A stretch of 40,969 nucleotides of DNA from NCBI GenBank assembly GCA_016870475.1, contig VGBO01000016.1, positions 1 to 40,969 of the forward strand, in the 5' to 3' direction. The position numbers and the translations under genes are program-made. How positions within the stretch are numbered: position 1 is the stretch's first letter; every line of letters starts with the position of its first letter. Below, piece after piece: positions 10,444 to 28,429 of this stretch. Origin of the DNA: Actinomycetota bacterium. GTDB taxonomy: Bacteria; Actinomycetota; Acidimicrobiia; Acidimicrobiales; CAIXPF01. Below the pieces are notes generated by a model that worked only from the letters and a program-made list of their open reading frames with translations, did not search any database and was not told the DNA's origin.

Positions 10444-11957
10444 GGCAGTCGGCCGAGCGCCTCGTCGACGGAGGCCGTCGCCGCGACCAGCGCGACGAGG
10501 TCCGGCCCCGAAAGGGCACGGGCACGGCGGCGGGCGTCGGCTCCCGCCGCGCCGACGAGCAGCTCCTCGTGGCGGGTGGAGGAGCGGTCCGGGGCGACCG
10601 CCGGATGGATCCGCTGCTCGGCGAGGGACCGGTCGAGGTGCAGCTCGAGGTTCGCCCCCTCGCGCAGGTCCTCGAGCACGGCGTCGTCCCCGCGGGTGCC
10701 GGTGCCGGTGGCCACCGTGGCGATCACCGTGAGCGAACCGCCCTCGGCGACGTTGCGGGCCGCACCGAGGAACCGCTTCGCCGGGTAGGTCGGCGATCCG
10801 AGCGGCGACGCGGTGTTGTAGGCGCGGGCGATCCGGGTGATCCCGTCGACGACCACCACCACGTCGTGGCCGGTCTCCACGAGCCGCTTGGCCCGTTCGA
10901 TGGTCATGTCCGCGGCGAGCACGTGCTCGTCGGCGGGCCGGTCGAACGTGGCGGCGACGATCTCGGACTCGACCACCCGCCGCACGTCGGTGACCTCTTC
11001 GGGACGTTCGTCGACGAGCAGCACCAGCAGGGTCACATCGGGGTTGTTCACCTCGACCGCCCGAGCGAGGGAACGGACGAGCGACGACGCCCCGGTGCGC
11101 GGCGGCGCGACCACGATGCCCCGCTGCCCACGGCCCATCGGCGTGAGCAGGTCGATCACCCGGGCGGTGACGTCGTCGGCGTTGTCGGGCCCGACGAGCA
11201 CGAGACGCTCCTCGGGGTGCACCGCGGTGAGGTCGTCGAACCGCAGGCGGCCACGAGCGGCCTCGGGATCGCCGTCGTTGACCTCCTCGACCCGCAGCAG
11301 GGCCGGGTTCTTCTCCCCCCGGCCGGCCGGACGCGACCATCCGGCGACGACGTCACCCTTGCGGAGACTGAACTGGCGGATGAACTTCGCCGGCACGTAC
11401 ACGTCCTCGCGGGAGGGCAGGTGGCCCCGCACCCGCAGGAAGCCGTACCCCTCATCCCGCAGGTCGAGGAGGCCGAGCACCCGGATGGCGTCCGGCGGCA
11501 GGGTCTGCTCGTCACCGTTCGGGCGTTCCCCCGCACCGCGCTCCGCTCCGCCGCGCTCCCCCGCGGCGCCCTCCACGGCGCCCCGGTCACGGCCCCGTCG
11601 ACGGCGGCGCCGACCACCGCCGGCCTGCTCGCCGTCCTCCGTCGTATCCTCGCCGGGGGACTCCTCCGACCCGGCGGAGCTCGCGGGCTCCTCCTCGGGT
11701 TCCTCCACCCGCTCCTCGGCGGGGGCCGCCTCGGGCTCGGGTGCCGGCCGCTGGGCGATGTGCGGCTGCTCGGGCGCCGGCTCCGGCGACGCTGCGGTGG
11801 TGCCGACGCCGGCGGCCTCGAGGATCAAGTCGATGAGCTGTTCCTTGCGGGCACGGGCCGGGGCGCGGCGACCGAGCGCCGCGGCGATCGCCGTGAGCTG
11901 CTCGCGGTCCTTGCGCTGCAGCGCCGCCCGTTCGAGTTCGTTCGCGTCAGCGGGCAC
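10440..11957 (-). CDS. rho: Transcription termination factor Rho homologue with degenerate ATPase motifs
   Basis: Rho-type protein, 505 aa from the GTG at 11957 (GGAGG 5 nt upstream; an ATG at 11969 is the alternative). An N-terminal Rho domain is followed by an acidic/arginine-rich linker (about 55-150) and the cold-shock RNA-binding domain (DEGYGFLRVRG, EDVYVPAKFIRQFSLRKGD, about 160-230). The RecA core keeps the catalytic region VDERPEEVTDV, Walker B VVVVVDGITRIARAYNT and the Arg-finger region STRHEE. The Walker A, however, reads APPRTGASS (284-292) where Rho normally has APPKAGKTM-type: the lysine is Ala290. The Q-loop SGGVD stretch is missing and the R-loop reads REGAN. The C-terminus is also shorter than usual. 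Motor function is therefore doubtful. Confidence 0.9.
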   Translation of the reverse strand: MPADANELERAALQRKDREQLTAIAAALGRRAPARARKEQLIDLILEAAGVGTTAASPEPAPEQPHIAQRPAPEPEAAPAEERVEEPEEEPASSAGSEESPGEDTTEDGEQAGGGRRRRRRGRDRGAVEGAAGERGGAERGAGERPNGDEQTLPPDAIRVLGLLDLRDEGYGFLRVRGHLPSREDVYVPAKFIRQFSLRKGDVVAGWSRPAGRGEKNPALLRVEEVNDGDPEAARGRLRFDDLTAVHPEERLVLVGPDNADDVTARVIDLLTPMGRGQRGIVVAPPRTGASSLVRSLARAVEVNNPDVTLLVLLVDERPEEVTDVRRVVESEIVAATFDRPADEHVLAADMTIERAKRLVETGHDVVVVVDGITRIARAYNTASPLGSPTYPAKRFLGAARNVAEGGSLTVIATVATGTGTRGDDAVLEDLREGANLELHLDRSLAEQRIHPAVAPDRSSTRHEELLVGAAGADARRRARALSGPDLVALVAATASVDEALGRLP

Positions 11958-12020
11958 GTCGTCCTCCATCCCACGACCAAGCCTCCCGGCGGGTCGGGTT
12001 CGTTTCGTCGCACTCCCGGC

Positions 12021-12049
12021 GGCGACGGATTCGTCGCCCAAGGGCCCTT
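12021..12049 (-). promoter_or_regulatory. Hairpin and palindrome in the rho leader
   Basis: In the 132-bp gap between the homoserine-kinase stop and rho there is a perfect hairpin GGCGACG-GATT-CGTCGCC (12021-12038), directly followed by the 10-bp palindrome AAGGGCCCTT (12040-12049). No T-tract is seen. rho leaders are often autoregulated in bacteria; whether this structure does so is inference. Confidence 0.4.
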
Positions 12050-12089
12050 GCGGGCAGATCGGGATCCGGCGGGAACCGGCGGAGTGATG

Positions 12090-13238
12090 CTATCGCTCGA
12101 GCAGCACGGCCATGAGGTCGTGCGCCGCGACCGGCTCGAGGCCGGCGACACCGGCCTCGCTGTAGGTGCCGCCCGGGCCGTCGACGCGCGAGTCCACGAG
12201 CAGGTAGGGCACCGGGTCGGGCGTGTGGGTGCGCAGGCGCAGTGGCGTCGCGTGGTCGGGCAGCAGCAGGAGCCGCCAGTCCCCCATGTCGTCGAGGGCC
12301 GGGATGAGGTCGGCGAGAACCCGAGCGTCCCAGTTCTCGAGGGCGCGCACCTTCTCGGCGACGTCGCCCGCGTGGCCCGCCTCGTCGGACGCCTCGATGT
12401 GGACGATCCACAGGTCCGCACCGTCGCGCAGCCCGGCGATCGCCGCGTCGCGCATGCCCTCGTAGTTCGTGTCGAACCAGGCGTTCGCGCCGGGCACCTC
12501 GACGACGTCGAGCCCGGCGAGCACCCCGAGGCCCCGCACGAGGTCGACCTCGGTCACGAGCCCACCCCGTAGGCCGAACCGGTCGGCGAGCGCCGGCATC
12601 GCCGGACCGGGGCCTTGCCCCCAGAGCCAGATCTGGTTCGCGTCGAGCCCGAAGCGCCCGAGCACCGCGCGCGACCGTTCCATCAGCTCGACGAGGTGCG
12701 GTGCGGCGGCGCCCGTGGGCAGGACCGACGGCTTGCCGGTCAGGTCGTGGGGCGGCACGCAGTCGGCGTCGGTCCAGTCCGGCGGTGCGAGCATGATGTG
12801 GCGGTACTTGACCCCCGGGTGGAACGACACGTCGCCACCGAGCTCGGCGTCGAGCGCCCGGATCACCTCGGCCGCAGCGTCGGAATCGGGGTGCCCGCCC
12901 GCGAAGTCGACCATCGTCCCGTCGGGCCCGACGGTCACGAGGTTGCAGCGGTACGCGACCCGCCCGGTGAGGTCGAGACGCATCGCCGCGGCCTCGATCG
13001 GGGCACGGCCGGTGTGGTAGCGGGCCGGGTCGTACCCGAAGATCGCCATGTTCCCGACGTCGCTCCCCGGCGGCATGCCGGCGGGGATCGTCGCCGCGCG
13101 GCCGACCGTGCCCCGGGCGGCGAGGGACCGCAGCACCGGAAGGTCGGCGGCCTCGAGCGGGGTGCGCCCGCCGAGCTCGTCGACCGGTTCGTCGGAACAG
13201 CCGTCGGGAACACAGACCACGTACTTCATCGCATCCAT
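12090..13238 (-). CDS. ApgM-type phosphoglycerate mutase-like protein, proposed homoserine kinase
   Basis: Alkaline-phosphatase-superfamily protein of 382 aa, related to archaeal-type cofactor-independent phosphoglycerate mutase. Metal-site signatures are visible: VPDGCSDEP near the N-terminus, SDVGNMAIFGYDP (with the phospho-accepting Ser position), HIEASDEAGHAGD and LLPDHATP. It lies 9 bp after thrC and in the exact place of thrB in the related mycobacterial cluster, and no classical GHMP-type ThrB is nearby. A subfamily of ApgM-like proteins next to thr genes has been proposed to act as homoserine kinase, which would supply O-phosphohomoserine to ThrC. The specific role is inference; phosphoglycerate mutase is the alternative. 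ATG 13238 (GAGGTG upstream) is preferred over ATG 13229. Confidence 0.82.
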   Translation of the reverse strand: MDAMKYVVCVPDGCSDEPVDELGGRTPLEAADLPVLRSLAARGTVGRAATIPAGMPPGSDVGNMAIFGYDPARYHTGRAPIEAAAMRLDLTGRVAYRCNLVTVGPDGTMVDFAGGHPDSDAAAEVIRALDAELGGDVSFHPGVKYRHIMLAPPDWTDADCVPPHDLTGKPSVLPTGAAAPHLVELMERSRAVLGRFGLDANQIWLWGQGPGPAMPALADRFGLRGGLVTEVDLVRGLGVLAGLDVVEVPGANAWFDTNYEGMRDAAIAGLRDGADLWIVHIEASDEAGHAGDVAEKVRALENWDARVLADLIPALDDMGDWRLLLLPDHATPLRLRTHTPDPVPYLLVDSRVDGPGGTYSEAGVAGLEPVAAHDLMAVLLER

Positions 13239-22805: not shown

Positions 22806-22840
22806 TGCCGGGTGGATCCACGCACGACCCCTCCGGTCAC
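22806..22840 (-). promoter_or_regulatory. Putative ECF-type promoter of the lipoprotein gene
   Basis: On the minus strand: GTGACC (22835-22840), 15 bp, GGATC (22815-22819), 2 bp, CCCGGCA (22806-22812). The same 18 fixed bases in the same spacing stand before the sigma-factor gene at 24434-24468. The spacing suits an ECF sigma -35/-10 pair. The lipoprotein ATG lies 42 bp downstream. Confidence 0.6.
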
Positions 22841-22885
22841 ACTTTTCTCCTGCGCACGCCGGCCGGGTGGCCGAGCACGGTAGGG

Positions 22886-22891
22886 AGCATA
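22886..22891 (-). promoter_or_regulatory. Possible housekeeping -10 box upstream of the lipoprotein gene
   Basis: TATGCT on the minus strand, about 122 nt before the lipoprotein ATG and just behind the sigma-factor stop codon. There is no clear -35. It could give basal transcription in addition to the element at 22806-22840. Confidence 0.25.
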
Positions 22892-22900
22892 CCGGCAGCG

Positions 22901-24418
22901 TCAGCACGCCACCTTCACCTGCACCACGGCGCCCCACGGGGCAGAACGGTTGCCCGCCGCGTCGAGGACCGCGTTCACCCGCACGCGGACCGCGCCGGCG
23001 TACTTCACCGGGCCGAGTGTGCCGACCAGTCGCCCGGACTGTGCGGTCATCGTCAGGGACCGCCAGGTGATCCCGTCGAGGGAGACCTCGACGTCGCCGC
23101 CGACCACCCCCACGTCGTCGGAGACGGCGACGGTGAGCATGGTCGTCGTCGGGATGAGGGTGACCGGGCACCCTGTCGACGTCGCCCGGATCGTGTTCCG
23201 CGCGGCGCTCACCGACAGGATCTTCGGCGGCAGCGTGTCCCCCTTCGTGGTCGAGGGTGCCCCACCCGTCGCCGACCCGGGTACCCCCGGACCGTCCGCC
23301 GTGGTCGTGGACGTGGGCGCCGACCCGGTCGGGACGACACTCGTGACCGCGCCGGTGGCGGTCGCCGTGGCACCCGATGCCCCCGTCCCCGACCCGTCGG
23401 CGGTCGGTGCGGTGACCGCCGCCGCGGCCCCCGTCGGCCCGGCGACCTCCTCGGCGTCGGTCCGGCCATCGCCCACGAGGGAAGGGAACGCTGCGACGGC
23501 GGCGATCACCACGACGAGCGCCACCACCGCGAGCCCGACGGGTCGGAACCCTCGGCCGGTCCTCGGGAAGCCGTCGCGGCCCGCACGGAACGCCGACCGG
23601 TCCGGCACGGGCAGACCCGCCCCGTCGACCGGCAACGCGCCGAGGAGCGCGTCCCGCACCGACGCCGGCGCCGCATGCGCGGGGGACGAGCGGAACGCCG
23701 CGACCGCCCGTGGTGCCCGCCGCCGGTCGTCGCAGACGGCGCAGCCGTCGGCATGGCGGGCGATCCGCTTGCGCCACAGCGGGGTGAGCGCACCCTCGTA
23801 GCCGTCGAGGAGCGCTGTGAACGTCAGGCACCCACCGTCGTCGAAGCGCAGCAACCGCAGCGCGCCCACCGAACGTTCGAGGTTCTGGCGCATGCGGCCG
23901 ACGGTGACGTTCGCGTGGTGTCGGGTCATCCCGAGCGCCGCAGCGAGCTCCGGGCCCTCGAGCCCCTGGCGGACGGAGAGCTCGAGCGCGGCGCGCTCCG
24001 CATCGTTCAGCCCGGCGGCCGCCTCCCACACGAGGGCGACCTCCGCCGAGGCGTCGACCCCTGCGGCCACGTCCGCTGCGACGTCGCCGACCGCAGCGAC
24101 CGTGCCGACCTCGAGCTCACCGCCCATCGGGTCCACCGGCTCGGACCGCGACGCCTTCGCTCCGAGACGGGCCACCCGGTTCCGGGCGATCGCGAACAAC
24201 CACGGGCGCACCCGGTCCGGGTCGCGGAGTTGCCCGAGCCGCTGCCAGGCCACGAGGAACGTCTCCGACAGCGCGTCCTCGGCGACACCCCGGTCGCGCG
24301 TGAGGGTGACGCACAGCGAGAACACCCGGTCGGCGTAGCGGTCGTAGAGCGCGGCGAACGCCGCCCGGTCGCCGGACCGGGCGGCGACCACCAGGTCGGT
24401 ATCGGTTGCCGTGCGCAT
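22901..24418 (-). CDS. Membrane-anchored ECF sigma factor fused to zinc-finger anti-sigma segment and extracytoplasmic domain
   Basis: A 505-residue multidomain regulator. Residues about 8-85 form ECF sigma region 2 (AAFAALYDRYADRVFSLC, AEDALSETFLVAWQRL, RPWLFAIARNRVARLG). Residues about 130-185 form region 4 (LNDAERAALELSVRQGLEGP, ELAAALGMTRHHANVTVGRM). Then comes an anti-sigma-like zinc motif H222xxxC226xxC229 (RHADGCAVC), one membrane helix near 303-325, a Thr/Gly/Ser-rich linker and an Ig-like outer domain ending DAAGNRSAPWG...VKVAC. The sigma part should face the cytoplasm and the C-terminus the outside. The ATG at 24418 has GGGAG 8 nt upstream. It is probably autoregulated through the element at 24434-24468. 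Confidence 0.92.
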   Translation of the reverse strand: MRTATDTDLVVAARSGDRAAFAALYDRYADRVFSLCVTLTRDRGVAEDALSETFLVAWQRLGQLRDPDRVRPWLFAIARNRVARLGAKASRSEPVDPMGGELEVGTVAAVGDVAADVAAGVDASAEVALVWEAAAGLNDAERAALELSVRQGLEGPELAAALGMTRHHANVTVGRMRQNLERSVGALRLLRFDDGGCLTFTALLDGYEGALTPLWRKRIARHADGCAVCDDRRRAPRAVAAFRSSPAHAAPASVRDALLGALPVDGAGLPVPDRSAFRAGRDGFPRTGRGFRPVGLAVVALVVVIAAVAAFPSLVGDGRTDAEEVAGPTGAAAAVTAPTADGSGTGASGATATATGAVTSVVPTGSAPTSTTTADGPGVPGSATGGAPSTTKGDTLPPKILSVSAARNTIRATSTGCPVTLIPTTTMLTVAVSDDVGVVGGDVEVSLDGITWRSLTMTAQSGRLVGTLGPVKYAGAVRVRVNAVLDAAGNRSAPWGAVVQVKVAC

Positions 24419-24433
24419 CGTCGGAGTCTCCCA

Positions 24434-24468
24434 TGCCGGGGAGATCCGCCCCGGAGACATCGGGTCAC
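24434..24468 (-). promoter_or_regulatory. Putative autoregulated ECF promoter of the sigma-factor gene
   Basis: On the minus strand: GTGACC (24463-24468), 15 bp, GGATC (24443-24447), 2 bp, CCCGGCA (24434-24440). This matches the element at 22806-22840 at all 18 listed positions and in spacing. A start site a few nt after GGATC would leave a leader of about 17-20 nt containing the GGGAG ribosome binding site. Confidence 0.6.
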
Positions 24469-24487: not shown

Positions 24488-24940
24488 TCAGGTGCGGGCG
24501 ACCGGCACCTTCGCCGCAGCGGAGACCGCCGCCGGGGCGGCCGGCACCCGGACCTCGAGGATCCCGTCGTGGTAACTGGCGATCACGTCGGCCTCCGAGC
24601 ACCCTTCGGGCAGTGGCAGCGTGCGGCTGAACGCTCCGTAGCGGAACTCGCTCCGGAACCCCCGGCGACGTTCCTCGACGTGCTCCCGGTGCCGTTCGAC
24701 GCTGATGTGGACCATGCCCCGGTCGACGGTGACATCCGCGTCCTTGTCCGGGTCGATCCCCGGCGCCTTGGCCCGCACGACGTACATGCCGTCCTCCATC
24801 TCCTCCTCCACCCGGAGCTCGCCGAGCCCGGGCAGCATCCCGTCGACCATCGTCATCAGGTCCCAGCGGTCACCATCGGTCCACCAGCGTCGAGCCGGCC
24901 AGAGTGCCCGCATCGCCTCCGTCGTCTTGGTCGCAGCCAT
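24488..24940 (-). CDS. Small heat-shock protein (Hsp20/alpha-crystallin family)
   Basis: ATP-independent holdase chaperone of 150 aa. The alpha-crystallin domain spans about residues 40-130, with YVVRAKAPGIDPDKDADVTV, the FRYGAFSRTLPLPEG segment and the closing GILEVRVP, the equivalent of the GxL strand. The C-terminal tail lacks a clean IxI motif (AAKVPVART). The ATG at 24940 follows GAGGAGG by 6 nt. It is divergent from the carotenoid operon. No HAIR or CIRCE element is visible upstream. Confidence 0.93.
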   Translation of the reverse strand: MAATKTTEAMRALWPARRWWTDGDRWDLMTMVDGMLPGLGELRVEEEMEDGMYVVRAKAPGIDPDKDADVTVDRGMVHISVERHREHVEERRRGFRSEFRYGAFSRTLPLPEGCSEADVIASYHDGILEVRVPAAPAAVSAAAKVPVART

Positions 24941-25027: not shown

Positions 25028-25033
25028 GTGCCC

Positions 25034-26098
25034 GTGTCGCCGTCGGTCCCGCAGTTCGAGCCGGTACGCGTCGCCGTCGACGCCCGACTCGACACCCTCC
25101 TCGTCGACGAGCAGGAACGCTGGGGGGCGGTCCACCCCGACCTCGACGTCGGCTTCGACCTCCTGCGCCGGTTCATCACGAACGGCGGCAAGCGGATCCG
25201 TCCGGCGTTCTGCTTCTGGGCGTTCGTCGGTGCCGGCGGCGACGCCGACGACCGCCGCATCGCCGACCTCGGCGCGGCCGTGGAGATGCTCCACACGTTC
25301 GCGCTCGTGCACGACGACGTCATGGACGGCTCCGACACGCGTCGCCATGCGCCCACCGTGCACCGGGCCGTCGAAGGCCTGCACGCGGCGTCGGCGTGGC
25401 GGGGCGAGCCGCGCCGCTTCAGCGAGGGCATGGCGATCCTGCTCGGCGACCTCGCGTTCGTCTACGCCGACCGGCTCGTCGCCGAGTTCCCCCGCGAGGT
25501 CACCGACCTGTTCGGCGAGATGCAGGTCGAGCTCCATGTCGGGCAGTACCTCGACATGATGGGCGCCGCGCGCCGGGACCTCGATCGGGACCGGGCCGAG
25601 ACCGTGATCCGCTACAAGACCGCCAAGTACTCGGTGGAGCGTCCGCTGCACCTCGGCGCTGCGCTCGCCGGGCGTCTCGGCGACCTCGGCGACGGCCTCA
25701 GCAGCTTCGGTCTGGCCGTCGGCGAGGCGTTCCAGCTCCGCGACGACGTCCTCGGTGCGTTCGGGGACCCGGCCGAGACGGGCAAGCCCACCGGCGACGA
25801 CTTCCGTGAGGGCAAGCAGACCCTCCTCGTGCACCTCGCACGACGCTGGGCGACCGACGGCGGACGCACTGCTGCACACCAGCTCCTCGAACGCCTCGGC
25901 GAGGTCGACCTCGCGCCCGCCGAGGTCGAGGGCCTGCGTGAGGTGCTCGTCGCGAGCGGAGCGCGTGCCGCCGTCGAGGCGCGCATCGACGAGCTCGTGA
26001 CCGATGGCCTCGCCGCGCTCGGGGACCTCGACCTCGCGCCCGTCGCTGCGGCCGAGCTCGCCGACCTCGCCCGCCGATCCGCATGGAGGACCACATGA
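25034..26098 (+). CDS. Polyprenyl synthetase, probable geranylgeranyl diphosphate synthase (CrtE/IdsA type)
   Basis: All-helical prenyltransferase of 354 aa that condenses IPP with allylic diphosphates. The first aspartate-rich motif is DDVMD (94-98) in LVHDDVMDGSDTRR, followed by RYKTAKYSVERPLHLG. The second is LRDDVLGAFGDPAETGKP, in the DDxxG form common in actinobacterial GGPP synthases. The phytoene synthase and desaturase genes that follow make a C20 product (GGPP) the likely output. The start is GTG 25034, leaderless after TAGGTT. It overlaps crtI in ATGA, the first of six overlaps or contacts in this operon. Confidence 0.92.
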   Translation: MSPSVPQFEPVRVAVDARLDTLLVDEQERWGAVHPDLDVGFDLLRRFITNGGKRIRPAFCFWAFVGAGGDADDRRIADLGAAVEMLHTFALVHDDVMDGSDTRRHAPTVHRAVEGLHAASAWRGEPRRFSEGMAILLGDLAFVYADRLVAEFPREVTDLFGEMQVELHVGQYLDMMGAARRDLDRDRAETVIRYKTAKYSVERPLHLGAALAGRLGDLGDGLSSFGLAVGEAFQLRDDVLGAFGDPAETGKPTGDDFREGKQTLLVHLARRWATDGGRTAAHQLLERLGEVDLAPAEVEGLREVLVASGARAAVEARIDELVTDGLAALGDLDLAPVAAAELADLARRSAWRTT

Positions 26099-27558
26099 GC
26101 GGTCACGTCGTCGTCGTCGGCGCCGGCCTCGGCGGCCTCGCCGCCGCCGCGCACCTCGTCGGTCGCGGGCACCGGGTCACGGTGGTCGAGCGCGGCGACG
26201 TCCCCGGCGGACGCGCCGGCGAGCTCCGCCTCGACGGGTACCGGTTCGACACCGGGCCCTCCGTGCTCACCATGCGCGACCTCCTCGCCGACGTGTTCGC
26301 CGCAGCCGGGGCCCGACTCGAGGACCACGTGACCCTGCGACGGGTCGAACCGGCGTACCGCGCCCGCTTCTGGGACGGCAGCGACCTCGCCGTCCACACC
26401 GACCGCGACCAGATGACGGAGGCGATCCGTGCCGCGGCGGGCGCACGCGACGCCGAGGGCTTCGGCCGCTTCGTCGACTGGGTCACCGAGCTGTACCGGG
26501 TCGAGTTCCCGAACTTCATCGCCCGCGACTTCCGCACCCCGGCCGACCTGCTCCGGACCCCCGGTGCGCTCGTCGACCTCGTCCGGCTCGGCGGGTTCGG
26601 GAAGCTGCAGGGGCGCGTCGACGACTTCTTCACCGACGAACGACTGCGCCGGTTGTTCTCCTTCCAGGCCATGTACGCCGGCCTCTCGCCGCTTCGTGCA
26701 CTCGCGCTGTTCGCCGTGATCGCCTACATGGACACCGTCGAGGGCGTCTGGTTCCCCGAGGGGGGCATGCACGCCGCCGCCACCGGGCTCGCCGAGGCGC
26801 TCATCGCCGCAGGGGTCGAGTTCCGCTACGGAACCACCGTCGAGGCGGTCCGCCCCGGTCGACCGGTCGAGGTCGTCACCGCGGACGGGGTGTTGCACGC
26901 CGACGTCGCCGTCCTCAACCCCGACCTCGCCCGCGCCTACCCCGACCTGCTGGGCGTGAAGCCTCCGCTCCCCGTGCGGATCGGCCGCTCGTCGCCGTCC
27001 TGCATCGTGTGGCTCATCGGCACGAGCGGGCCCCTGCCCGACGTCGTCGCCCACCACAACATCCACTTCGCCGAGTCGTGGGCGCCCGCGTTCGAGGAGC
27101 TCCTCGACCGGGGCACGCCGATGTCGGACCCGTCCCGCTTCGTCACCGTCGCCACCCGCACCGATCCGACCGCGGCGCCCGACGGCGGCCACACGCTCTA
27201 CGTGCTCGAGCCGGTGCCGCACCTCGGCCACGACGTCGACTGGCAGCGTGCCACCCCCGAGCTCACCGAGCGGATGCTCACCTGGGCCCGGGACGAGGGG
27301 TACCTGCAGGGTGAACCCGAGGTCCTCCACGTCACCGATCCGCCGGCGTGGCGCGCCGCGGGCATGGGCCGGGGCACGCCGTTCGCGTTCGACCACCGGT
27401 TCACCCAGAGCGGCCCCTTCCGGCCGGCGCTCACGGACCGCCGCCTGCCCGGCGTGGTGTTCGTCGGCTCGGGCACCCGACCCGGGGTGGGGGTCCCGAT
27501 GGTGCTCGTGTCCGGTCGGCTCGCCGCGGACGCCGTCGACCGGGTGCACCGTGGCTGA
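26095..27558 (+). CDS. crtI: Phytoene desaturase
   Basis: FAD-dependent CrtI-type desaturase, 487 aa, converting phytoene to lycopene-like products. The N-terminal dinucleotide fold is VVVVGAGLGGLAAAAHLVGRGHRVTVVERGD with PGGRAGELRLDGYRFDTGPS. The C-terminal family signature is GVVFVGSGTRPGVGVPMVLVSGRLAADAV. The ATG at 26095 has GGAGG 6 nt upstream and overlaps the previous stop. The number of desaturation steps cannot be told from sequence. It acts at the membrane on the product of crtB encoded next. Confidence 0.95.
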   Translation: MSGHVVVVGAGLGGLAAAAHLVGRGHRVTVVERGDVPGGRAGELRLDGYRFDTGPSVLTMRDLLADVFAAAGARLEDHVTLRRVEPAYRARFWDGSDLAVHTDRDQMTEAIRAAAGARDAEGFGRFVDWVTELYRVEFPNFIARDFRTPADLLRTPGALVDLVRLGGFGKLQGRVDDFFTDERLRRLFSFQAMYAGLSPLRALALFAVIAYMDTVEGVWFPEGGMHAAATGLAEALIAAGVEFRYGTTVEAVRPGRPVEVVTADGVLHADVAVLNPDLARAYPDLLGVKPPLPVRIGRSSPSCIVWLIGTSGPLPDVVAHHNIHFAESWAPAFEELLDRGTPMSDPSRFVTVATRTDPTAAPDGGHTLYVLEPVPHLGHDVDWQRATPELTERMLTWARDEGYLQGEPEVLHVTDPPAWRAAGMGRGTPFAFDHRFTQSGPFRPALTDRRLPGVVFVGSGTRPGVGVPMVLVSGRLAADAVDRVHRG

Positions 27559-28429
27559 CACCGGCGCCGCGGTGCTGCTCGAGGACAGCTACGCCCACTG
27601 CCGCGAGCTACACCGCCGCCACGGCACCACCTACTACTGGGCGACCCGCGCCCTCCCCCGGGTGAAGCAACACCACGTGCACGCCCTCTACGGGCTGTGC
27701 CGGTTCGCGGACGAGATCGTCGACGCCTTCGACGACTCGGCCACCGATGCGCGGCGCAGCGCCCTCGCCGAGTTCCGGGACCGCTTCGAGACCGACCTCG
27801 CCGCCCGCCGCAGCGACCACCCGGTGCTGCACGCCGTGGTGCACACGGCGGTGGCGTTCGACCTCCCGACGAGCGCGTTCACGCGGTTCTTCGACGCGAT
27901 GGCGATGGACCTCGACGTCACCACCTACCCGACCTACGCCGACCTCGAGCGCTACATGGACGGGTCCGCGGCCGTGATCGGCGAGCTCATGCTCCCGATC
28001 CTCGAACCGGTGGACCCTGCGGCCGCGCTCCCCCGCGCCCGAGACCTCGGCATCGCGTTCCAGCTCACGAACTTCCTGCGCGACGTGGGCGAGGACCTCG
28101 ACCGGGGGCGCGTCTACCTGCCGACCGAGGACCTCGAGCGGTTCGGTGCCGACCCCTGGCAGCGGACGGTGACCCCGGAGTGGGTGGCGTTGTGCCGGTT
28201 CGAGGCCGACCGGATCCGGGCCCTGTACCGCTCGGCCGACGAAGGCATCGCCCTCCTCCCCGCCCGTTCGGCCGGCGCGATCCGTGCGGCGCGGATCCTC
28301 TACGGGGAGATCCTCGACCGGGTCGAGGCGAACGGCTGGGACGTGTTCAGCCGCCGGGCCAGGGTCCCGCTCCCGAGGAAGCTCGGCGTCGCCGCGCGTG
28401 AGCTCGGGCGGGCACGGCGGGGCCGGTGA
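27551..28429 (+). CDS. crtB: Phytoene synthase
   Basis: Squalene/phytoene synthase family enzyme of 292 aa, joining two GGPP into phytoene. The first aspartate-rich motif is in LYGLCRFADEIVDAFDD. The second is in QLTNFLRDVGEDLDRGRVYLP. The N-terminal DSYAHCRELHRRHGTTYYWATRALP is also typical. The start is taken as GTG 27551, overlapping crtI by 8 bp; the open frame upstream overlaps crtI sequence and is not used. Confidence 0.95.
   Translation: MADTGAAVLLEDSYAHCRELHRRHGTTYYWATRALPRVKQHHVHALYGLCRFADEIVDAFDDSATDARRSALAEFRDRFETDLAARRSDHPVLHAVVHTAVAFDLPTSAFTRFFDAMAMDLDVTTYPTYADLERYMDGSAAVIGELMLPILEPVDPAAALPRARDLGIAFQLTNFLRDVGEDLDRGRVYLPTEDLERFGADPWQRTVTPEWVALCRFEADRIRALYRSADEGIALLPARSAGAIRAARILYGEILDRVEANGWDVFSRRARVPLPRKLGVAARELGRARRGR

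Follow-up and report, generated by a model that had tools for sequence, protein, structure and literature searches.

The locus examined here raises the question of what reads a bipartite sequence, GTGACC-N15-GGATC-N2-CCCGGCA, that lies before two neighbouring genes, one encoding a sigma factor fused to a membrane-spanning extension and the other a lipoprotein. Both genes are contained in a stretch of 40,969 nucleotides, hereafter the window, from an actinomycetotal bacterium of the order Acidimicrobiales (GCA_016870475.1, contig VGBO01000016.1). The best reading, to which we assign a probability of about 0.85, is that the element is an ECF promoter recognized by the sigma domain of the fusion protein, giving positive autoregulation together with a small regulon of surface proteins. 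Sequence comparison supports the element itself, its restriction to three sites in the genome, its conservation before fusion genes and surface genes of relatives, and the domain architecture of the predicted regulator.

The element and its copies in the source genome

The first-pass annotation had reported the element at two positions on the minus strand, each just upstream of a start codon, and had judged it unlikely to arise by chance. Both copies are exact, with 0 mismatches (Table 1). A scan of the whole genome (2.45 Mb, 116 contigs), which the same annotation had put forward as a check, was carried out at up to 3 mismatches and returned three exact copies, compared with none for a reversed-pattern control. 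No copy with 1 or 2 mismatches was found genome-wide, and the 12 matches at 3 mismatches are background (2 for the reversed control). Shuffling of the window gave an expectation of 0.2 matches at ≤3 mismatches, in line with the earlier judgement. All three copies sit just 5′ of a start codon. Their 15-nt spacers are unlike each other, so that the set is no recent duplication, and an origin as a mobile repeat was dropped on the same grounds. An A-rich stretch is found ahead of two of the copies (GAAAAAGTTGTGACC, GAGAAAAGTGTGACC), and the copy before the sigma gene has GGAAGGTTTCCGTGACC ahead of it. The arms, as read from the sequence, have no obvious inverted or direct repeat. A search of the same genome with altered spacing and degenerate patterns gave seven further matches with other spacings; another two degenerate matches were rejected, being located inside long open frames with no substantial ORF beginning just downstream.

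Table 1. Coordinates of the features discussed; positions are those of the window unless a contig is named
Feature	Position	Strand	Basis or detail
Lipoprotein gene, 192 aa	22185..22763	-	predicted regulon member
Second predicted promoter copy, before lipoprotein gene	22806..22840	-	exact motif
Parts of lipoprotein promoter		-	-35 22835-22840; -10 22815-22819; initiation block 22806-22812
Sigma fusion gene, 505 aa	22901..24418	-	Pfam, invariant residues, AF2 model, fold search
Layout of fusion protein			sigma2 residues 5-92; sigma4 122-191; zinc motif C197/H222/C226/C229; TM about 292-310; Thr/Ser/Gly linker; Ig-like outer domain about 399-505
Ig-like extracytoplasmic domain of fusion	22904..23224	-	ends in conserved Cys
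Fused anti-sigma ZAS-type zinc motif, C-x24-H-x3-C-x2-C	23732..23830	-	four residues invariant, 27 homologues
Predicted autoregulatory ECF-type promoter of sigma fusion gene	24434..24468	-	exact motif and homologous sites
Parts of sigma-gene promoter		-	-35 GTGACC 24463-24468; spacer N15; -10 GGATC 24443-24447; initiation block CCCGGCA 24434-24440
Third element copy	C61:7841-7875		37 nt before ATG 7803

The CCCGGCA block probably spans the transcription start, with its final A as the +1 position, which for the sigma fusion gene would probably place initiation at or near A24434. The leaders implied are about 16 nt for the fusion, 43 nt for the lipoprotein (about 42-43 nt to ATG 22763) and 38 nt for the gene on contig C61. 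The proximity to start codons noted in the first pass holds for both genes of the window, with one correction. The first ATG of the sigma open reading frame (24460) falls within the spacer of the element, and a Shine-Dalgarno-like GGGAGA lies just upstream of the ATG at 24418; the latter is thus taken as the usable start, and translation of the fusion probably begins there.

Directly upstream of the fusion gene lies an HSP20 gene, assigned by Pfam (24488-24940, minus strand). Beyond it, on the other strand, translations inspected by eye resemble a carotenoid-synthesis cluster (25028-28429), with a polyprenyl synthase, a phytoene desaturase-like protein and a phytoene synthase-like protein. The whole-genome search found no exact copy of the element before either the HSP20 gene or this cluster.

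A sigma factor joined to a predicted anti-sigma domain and an outer domain

The fusion protein contains sigma2 and sigma4 as its only sigma regions, the arrangement that defines the ECF (group IV) factors. Pfam identifies Sigma70_r2 with an E-value of 1.3e-10 and, weakly, r4_2 (E 0.035), TIGR02937 is above its cut-off, and the sigma helices are present in an AF2 model. The modelled sigma region matches SigW, CnrH and SigE in the PDB. By Foldseek, the nearest structures to the modelled sigma halves are SigW in its complex with RsiW and CnrH in its complex with CnrY (target TM about 0.76), whereas sigma factors within initiation complexes score lower, at about 0.4. In the model, this resemblance to sigma factors bound by anti-sigma proteins would fit an inhibited state.

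The residues C197, H222, C226 and C229 that follow are invariant in 27 fusion homologues and conform to the ZAS zinc-ligand pattern. The Pfam zf-HC2 model gave no match in the window fusion and matched 1 of the 27 homologues. Across the membrane, the AF2 model shows an Ig-like beta sandwich at about residues 399-504, with pLDDT mostly 80-94. In the alignment of this outer domain C24 is invariant and C112 nearly so, and the terminal Cys of the fusion is one of this conserved outer-domain pair, probably acting as a disulfide partner. No carbohydrate-binding Pfam match was obtained in the window protein or in the homologues searched, the outer domain of the window fusion being Ig-like.

At E ≤ 1e-20, 48 of the 248 genomes searched in the order have a fusion homologue, comprising an ECF sigma factor, a ZAS-type motif, one TM helix and an outer domain. 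The search of genome contigs for related loci yielded distant ECF proteins only, and in the seven of these that were inspected a comparable ZAS/TM/outer-domain fusion was absent. One genome, G128, holds two diverged fusion genes about 3.5 kb apart (locus L099; 6099-7649 on the plus and 11102-12628 on the minus strand), and G054 also has two, on separate contigs; such pairs suggest paralogous switches.

Conservation of the predicted promoter and its probable reader

The 300 bp before the fusion genes of other genomes were examined by gapped-dyad enumeration. The top dyad was GTAA-N18-GTC (7 vs. 0.29 expected), and the next-ranked, TGTA-N19-GTC and TAAG-N17-GTC, represent the same motif. With the upstream regions placed in 28 family groups, the window's own site left out and 2000 draws of random windows as a control, TGTRA-N18/19-RTC was found in 6/28 groups as opposed to 0.54 ± 0.67 in random windows (0/2000 draws), and GTAA-N18/19-GTC in 7/28 as opposed to 0.42. 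When the spacer was varied from 12 to 25, matches were confined to 18 and 19 except for one group each at 12 and 23. The window copies share this register, reading GTGA-N19-ATC. In its general form, GTRA-N18/19-RTC, the architecture stands before fusions in eight families (f6, f10, f24, f27, f44, f52, f53 and f57) other than that of the window (f1). The closest case is genome G023, where the fusion is preceded by GTGACC-N17-GTC and its divergent gene by GTGACT-N17-ATC, so that RTC alternates between G and A inside one genome.

A third block, NN[AC]C[CT][AG]G[CT][AG], follows RTC at 9 of 20 sites and, with the three sites of the source genome set aside, in families f10, f24, f27 and f57 (background rate 0.003); in the source genome it takes the form CCCGGCA at a fixed distance. 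The scan of related genomes called for in the first pass had two outcomes: the architecture is kept before fusion homologues of eight other families, and the strict 18-base form, with a single one-mismatch match in each of 5/198 genomes of the order, is lineage-specific and almost private to the source genome. No recognizable site of this type was present in 30 of 41 upstream regions of fusion homologues, and the fusions concerned may belong to operons, begin at start codons farther upstream than the region examined, or rely on other promoters.

The boxes of the source genome are GTGACC and GGATC, and those of its homologues GTAAG and CGTC. The usual ECF boxes are AAC (-35) and CGT (-10), from which GTGAC and GATC depart (PMC8103513). 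The -35 type varies with the recognition helix of sigma4: a helix reading HHANV accompanies GTGACC in 2/2 cases vs. 0/39 others (p = 0.0012; genomes G000 and G023 only), SHxHV accompanies TGTAA in 5/6 vs. 1/35 (p = 5e-5), and NAANQ accompanies GTAAGC in 2/2, all of these helix classes being small and drawn after the data had been seen. Since the -35 type tracks the helix class, these associations suggest that the element is read by the sigma domain of the fusion itself. Fusions with a QQSY helix (L101, L102, L110 and L114) have another upstream element, roughly AAAAYYGCGAGA, found by pattern in 3/5 cases with a variant in a fourth, which is perhaps a separate promoter class of those fusions.

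An alternative in which the element belongs to another ECF factor of the same genome, driving the fusion in a cascade, draws on the presence of other ECF-like proteins there (four matches to the fusion query) and on the mutual resemblance of ECF promoters. It appears unlikely, as the architecture tracks fusion genes in eight further families, the -35 type goes with the helix class of the fusion itself, and the second outer-domain protein of the genome, encoded on C61, is also a predicted target. An operator bound by some regulatory protein, the true promoter being elsewhere, would also suit the location upstream of start codons, and the CCCGGCA block exceeds what most ECF promoters show. Yet the spacing of 18/19 between the two main blocks across families fits contacts by sigma2 and sigma4, the -10-like RTC is near the ECF CGTC, and the arms are without evident repeats, so that we hold an operator to be very improbable. 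In a high-GC genome a short motif could also be matched by chance or be carried in functionless copied DNA. The shuffles and the empty 1-2 mismatch class contradict chance, the differing spacers contradict copying, and three genomic copies together with an architecture shared across families leave this explanation scarcely credible. The ECF-type promoter claimed in the first pass for the fusion and lipoprotein genes is thus a prediction with well-founded comparative support, namely the same spacing in eight other families, a neighbouring surface gene bearing the element in four, and the correspondence of -35 box and helix.

A predicted regulon of surface proteins

The third copy of the element precedes a gene for a protein of 233 aa. 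A membrane segment at its N terminus is followed by a low-complexity linker, and the C-terminal part is a beta-rich domain that ends in ...GNVCTGGPGSLTDL. When the fusion outer domains were made into a profile, with the C61 protein left out, only two proteins in the whole genome were detected at E < 0.01, these being the fusion (2.7e-25) and the C61 product (0.0083). A profile built entirely from sequences of other genomes recovered the C61 product at E = 2e-4 among 3056 open frames. It is thus predicted to be a membrane-anchored protein with a stand-alone copy of the fusion's outer domain, and the coincidence of a rare element and a rare outer domain at the same two loci lends independent support to the regulon.

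The lipoprotein has a lipobox-like signal peptide, an Ala/Thr-rich linker and a Cys-containing C-terminal domain that is probably all-beta; its AF2 model, built from a single sequence, is of poor quality (pLDDT 54). A terminal cysteine is indeed present in both window proteins, as the first-pass annotation had observed. The link drawn from this does not hold, as the cysteine of the sigma protein belongs to the conserved C24/C112 pair of the Ig-like domain. A role for the lipoprotein as ligand or sensor partner of the fusion, a proposal that would supplement the promoter reading, is doubtful. The lipoprotein is extracytoplasmic, adjoins the fusion gene and is predicted to be co-regulated with it, and predicted co-regulated surface proteins recur in relatives. 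However, its domain shows no homology to that of the fusion (E = 9.7 against the outer-domain profile) and had no detectable homologue in 198 genomes, where matches were confined to the signal peptide and linker. Further, the surface proteins under the promoter vary by family, leaving none as a constant partner, and the C61 product is a better candidate. What is conserved is thus the promoter and the surface location rather than the protein, and the lipoprotein fits the pattern of promoter-sharing surface genes predicted in relatives.

In four families the upstream region of the fusion also bears the element on its other strand, facing a divergent gene, and these genes encode secreted or membrane-anchored proteins of dissimilar sequence. 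Those of G023, G005, G076 and G112 have a signal or membrane segment at the very start, and that of G057 has one after a short N-terminal part. Throughout the 3.8 Mb of G057 the extended motif is confined to the promoters of the fusion and this divergent surface gene. In G217 each of the 4 extended-motif hits stands before a gene for a secreted protein or a lipoprotein, a lipobox being present in one, and in G112 both hits stand before genes for secreted proteins; G076 has one exact match, before the divergent surface gene, and one-mismatch matches that look mostly like background. Small secreted proteins behind the sigma-type promoter at L167 (G112:C33) and L165 (G217:C71) contain the segment GLHDSVHCL, present twice at L167 as LGLHDSVHCL; these proteins resemble a precursor of repeated peptides and might act as a secreted signal. 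The anchored proteins divergent from the fusion at L094 (G079) and L118 (G057) have HYDIN/BACON-type Ig domains like the outer regions of the fusions. By BLASTP, these domains match the genome's own sigma protein in G079 (E 0.002) and the sigma protein of G134 in the case of G057 (5e-5), and reversed decoys gave no match.

In the mechanism that we favour, that of an autoregulatory ECF promoter, sigma4 would bind GTGACC as the -35 element and sigma2 would bind GGATC, with its RTC core, as the -10 element, CCCGGCA being a conserved initiation region. In the off state, the fused ZAS-type domain would hold sigma beside the membrane. Its release, probably by proteolysis or conformational change, would follow a signal at the Ig-like outer domain, and the released sigma would then transcribe its own gene, as positive feedback, along with those for the neighbouring lipoprotein and the C61 membrane-anchored protein. 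A more tentative extension, possible but on balance improbable, is that the fusion keeps a surface structure in balance as a homeostat, with an outer domain that mimics a surface subunit and targets that include an anchored protein with the same domain; it draws on the C61 protein and on the HYDIN/BACON-type partners in G057 and G079. If so, stand-alone copies of the domain would either take up the ligand in competition with the sigma protein or bind its outer domain, and the switch would shut off once enough surface protein had been made.

Among known systems, SigW-RsiW is similar in the fold of the modelled sigma halves and in the predicted autoregulation. The zinc-ligand pattern is that of RsrA in the SigR-RsrA pair, and in both of these systems the anti-sigma is a separate protein, unlike the fused one here. 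IutY, whose anti-sigma is of the FecR type and not ZAS, is likewise a sigma factor fused to a membrane anti-sigma. This protein (ECF243, Pseudomonas putida) is activated by proteolysis in siderophore signalling (PMC8999054). The fusion is of the ECF52/53-type layout, with all parts in a single chain. Proteolytic action is predicted for the actinobacterial groups ECF48, ECF52 and ECF53, in which an ECF factor carries a fused zinc-finger/TM extension (PMC8999054), and the protein described here shares with them an actinobacterial origin, the succession of sigma, ZAS zinc finger, TM helix, low-complexity linker and outer domain, and a putative positive autoregulation with proposed proteolytic release (PMC8999054, PMC5826349). 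In SCO4117 of Streptomyces coelicolor (ECF52), the outer part is a carbohydrate-binding module, and both the motif CSGYN-17-SRHA and autoregulation are putative (PMC5826349). In contrast, the outer domain here is Ig-like, the motif is GTGACC-N15-GGATC, or GTRA-N18/19-RTC in homologues, and a surface regulon of three genes that includes a stand-alone outer-domain protein is predicted, a feature that sets it apart from ECF48, ECF52 and ECF53.

Few studies have dealt with ECF factors that contain a built-in membrane anti-sigma; SCO4117 is named in review as the best understood actinobacterial case, and its promoter is still putative (PMC8999054, PMC5826349). The present locus adds a whole family within one order and a predicted promoter that tracks the recognition helix, with a predicted regulon of three genes that is small enough for complete testing. 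The surface proteins predicted to be co-regulated, including a stand-alone copy of the sensor domain, would offer a way to learn what these one-protein switches sense.
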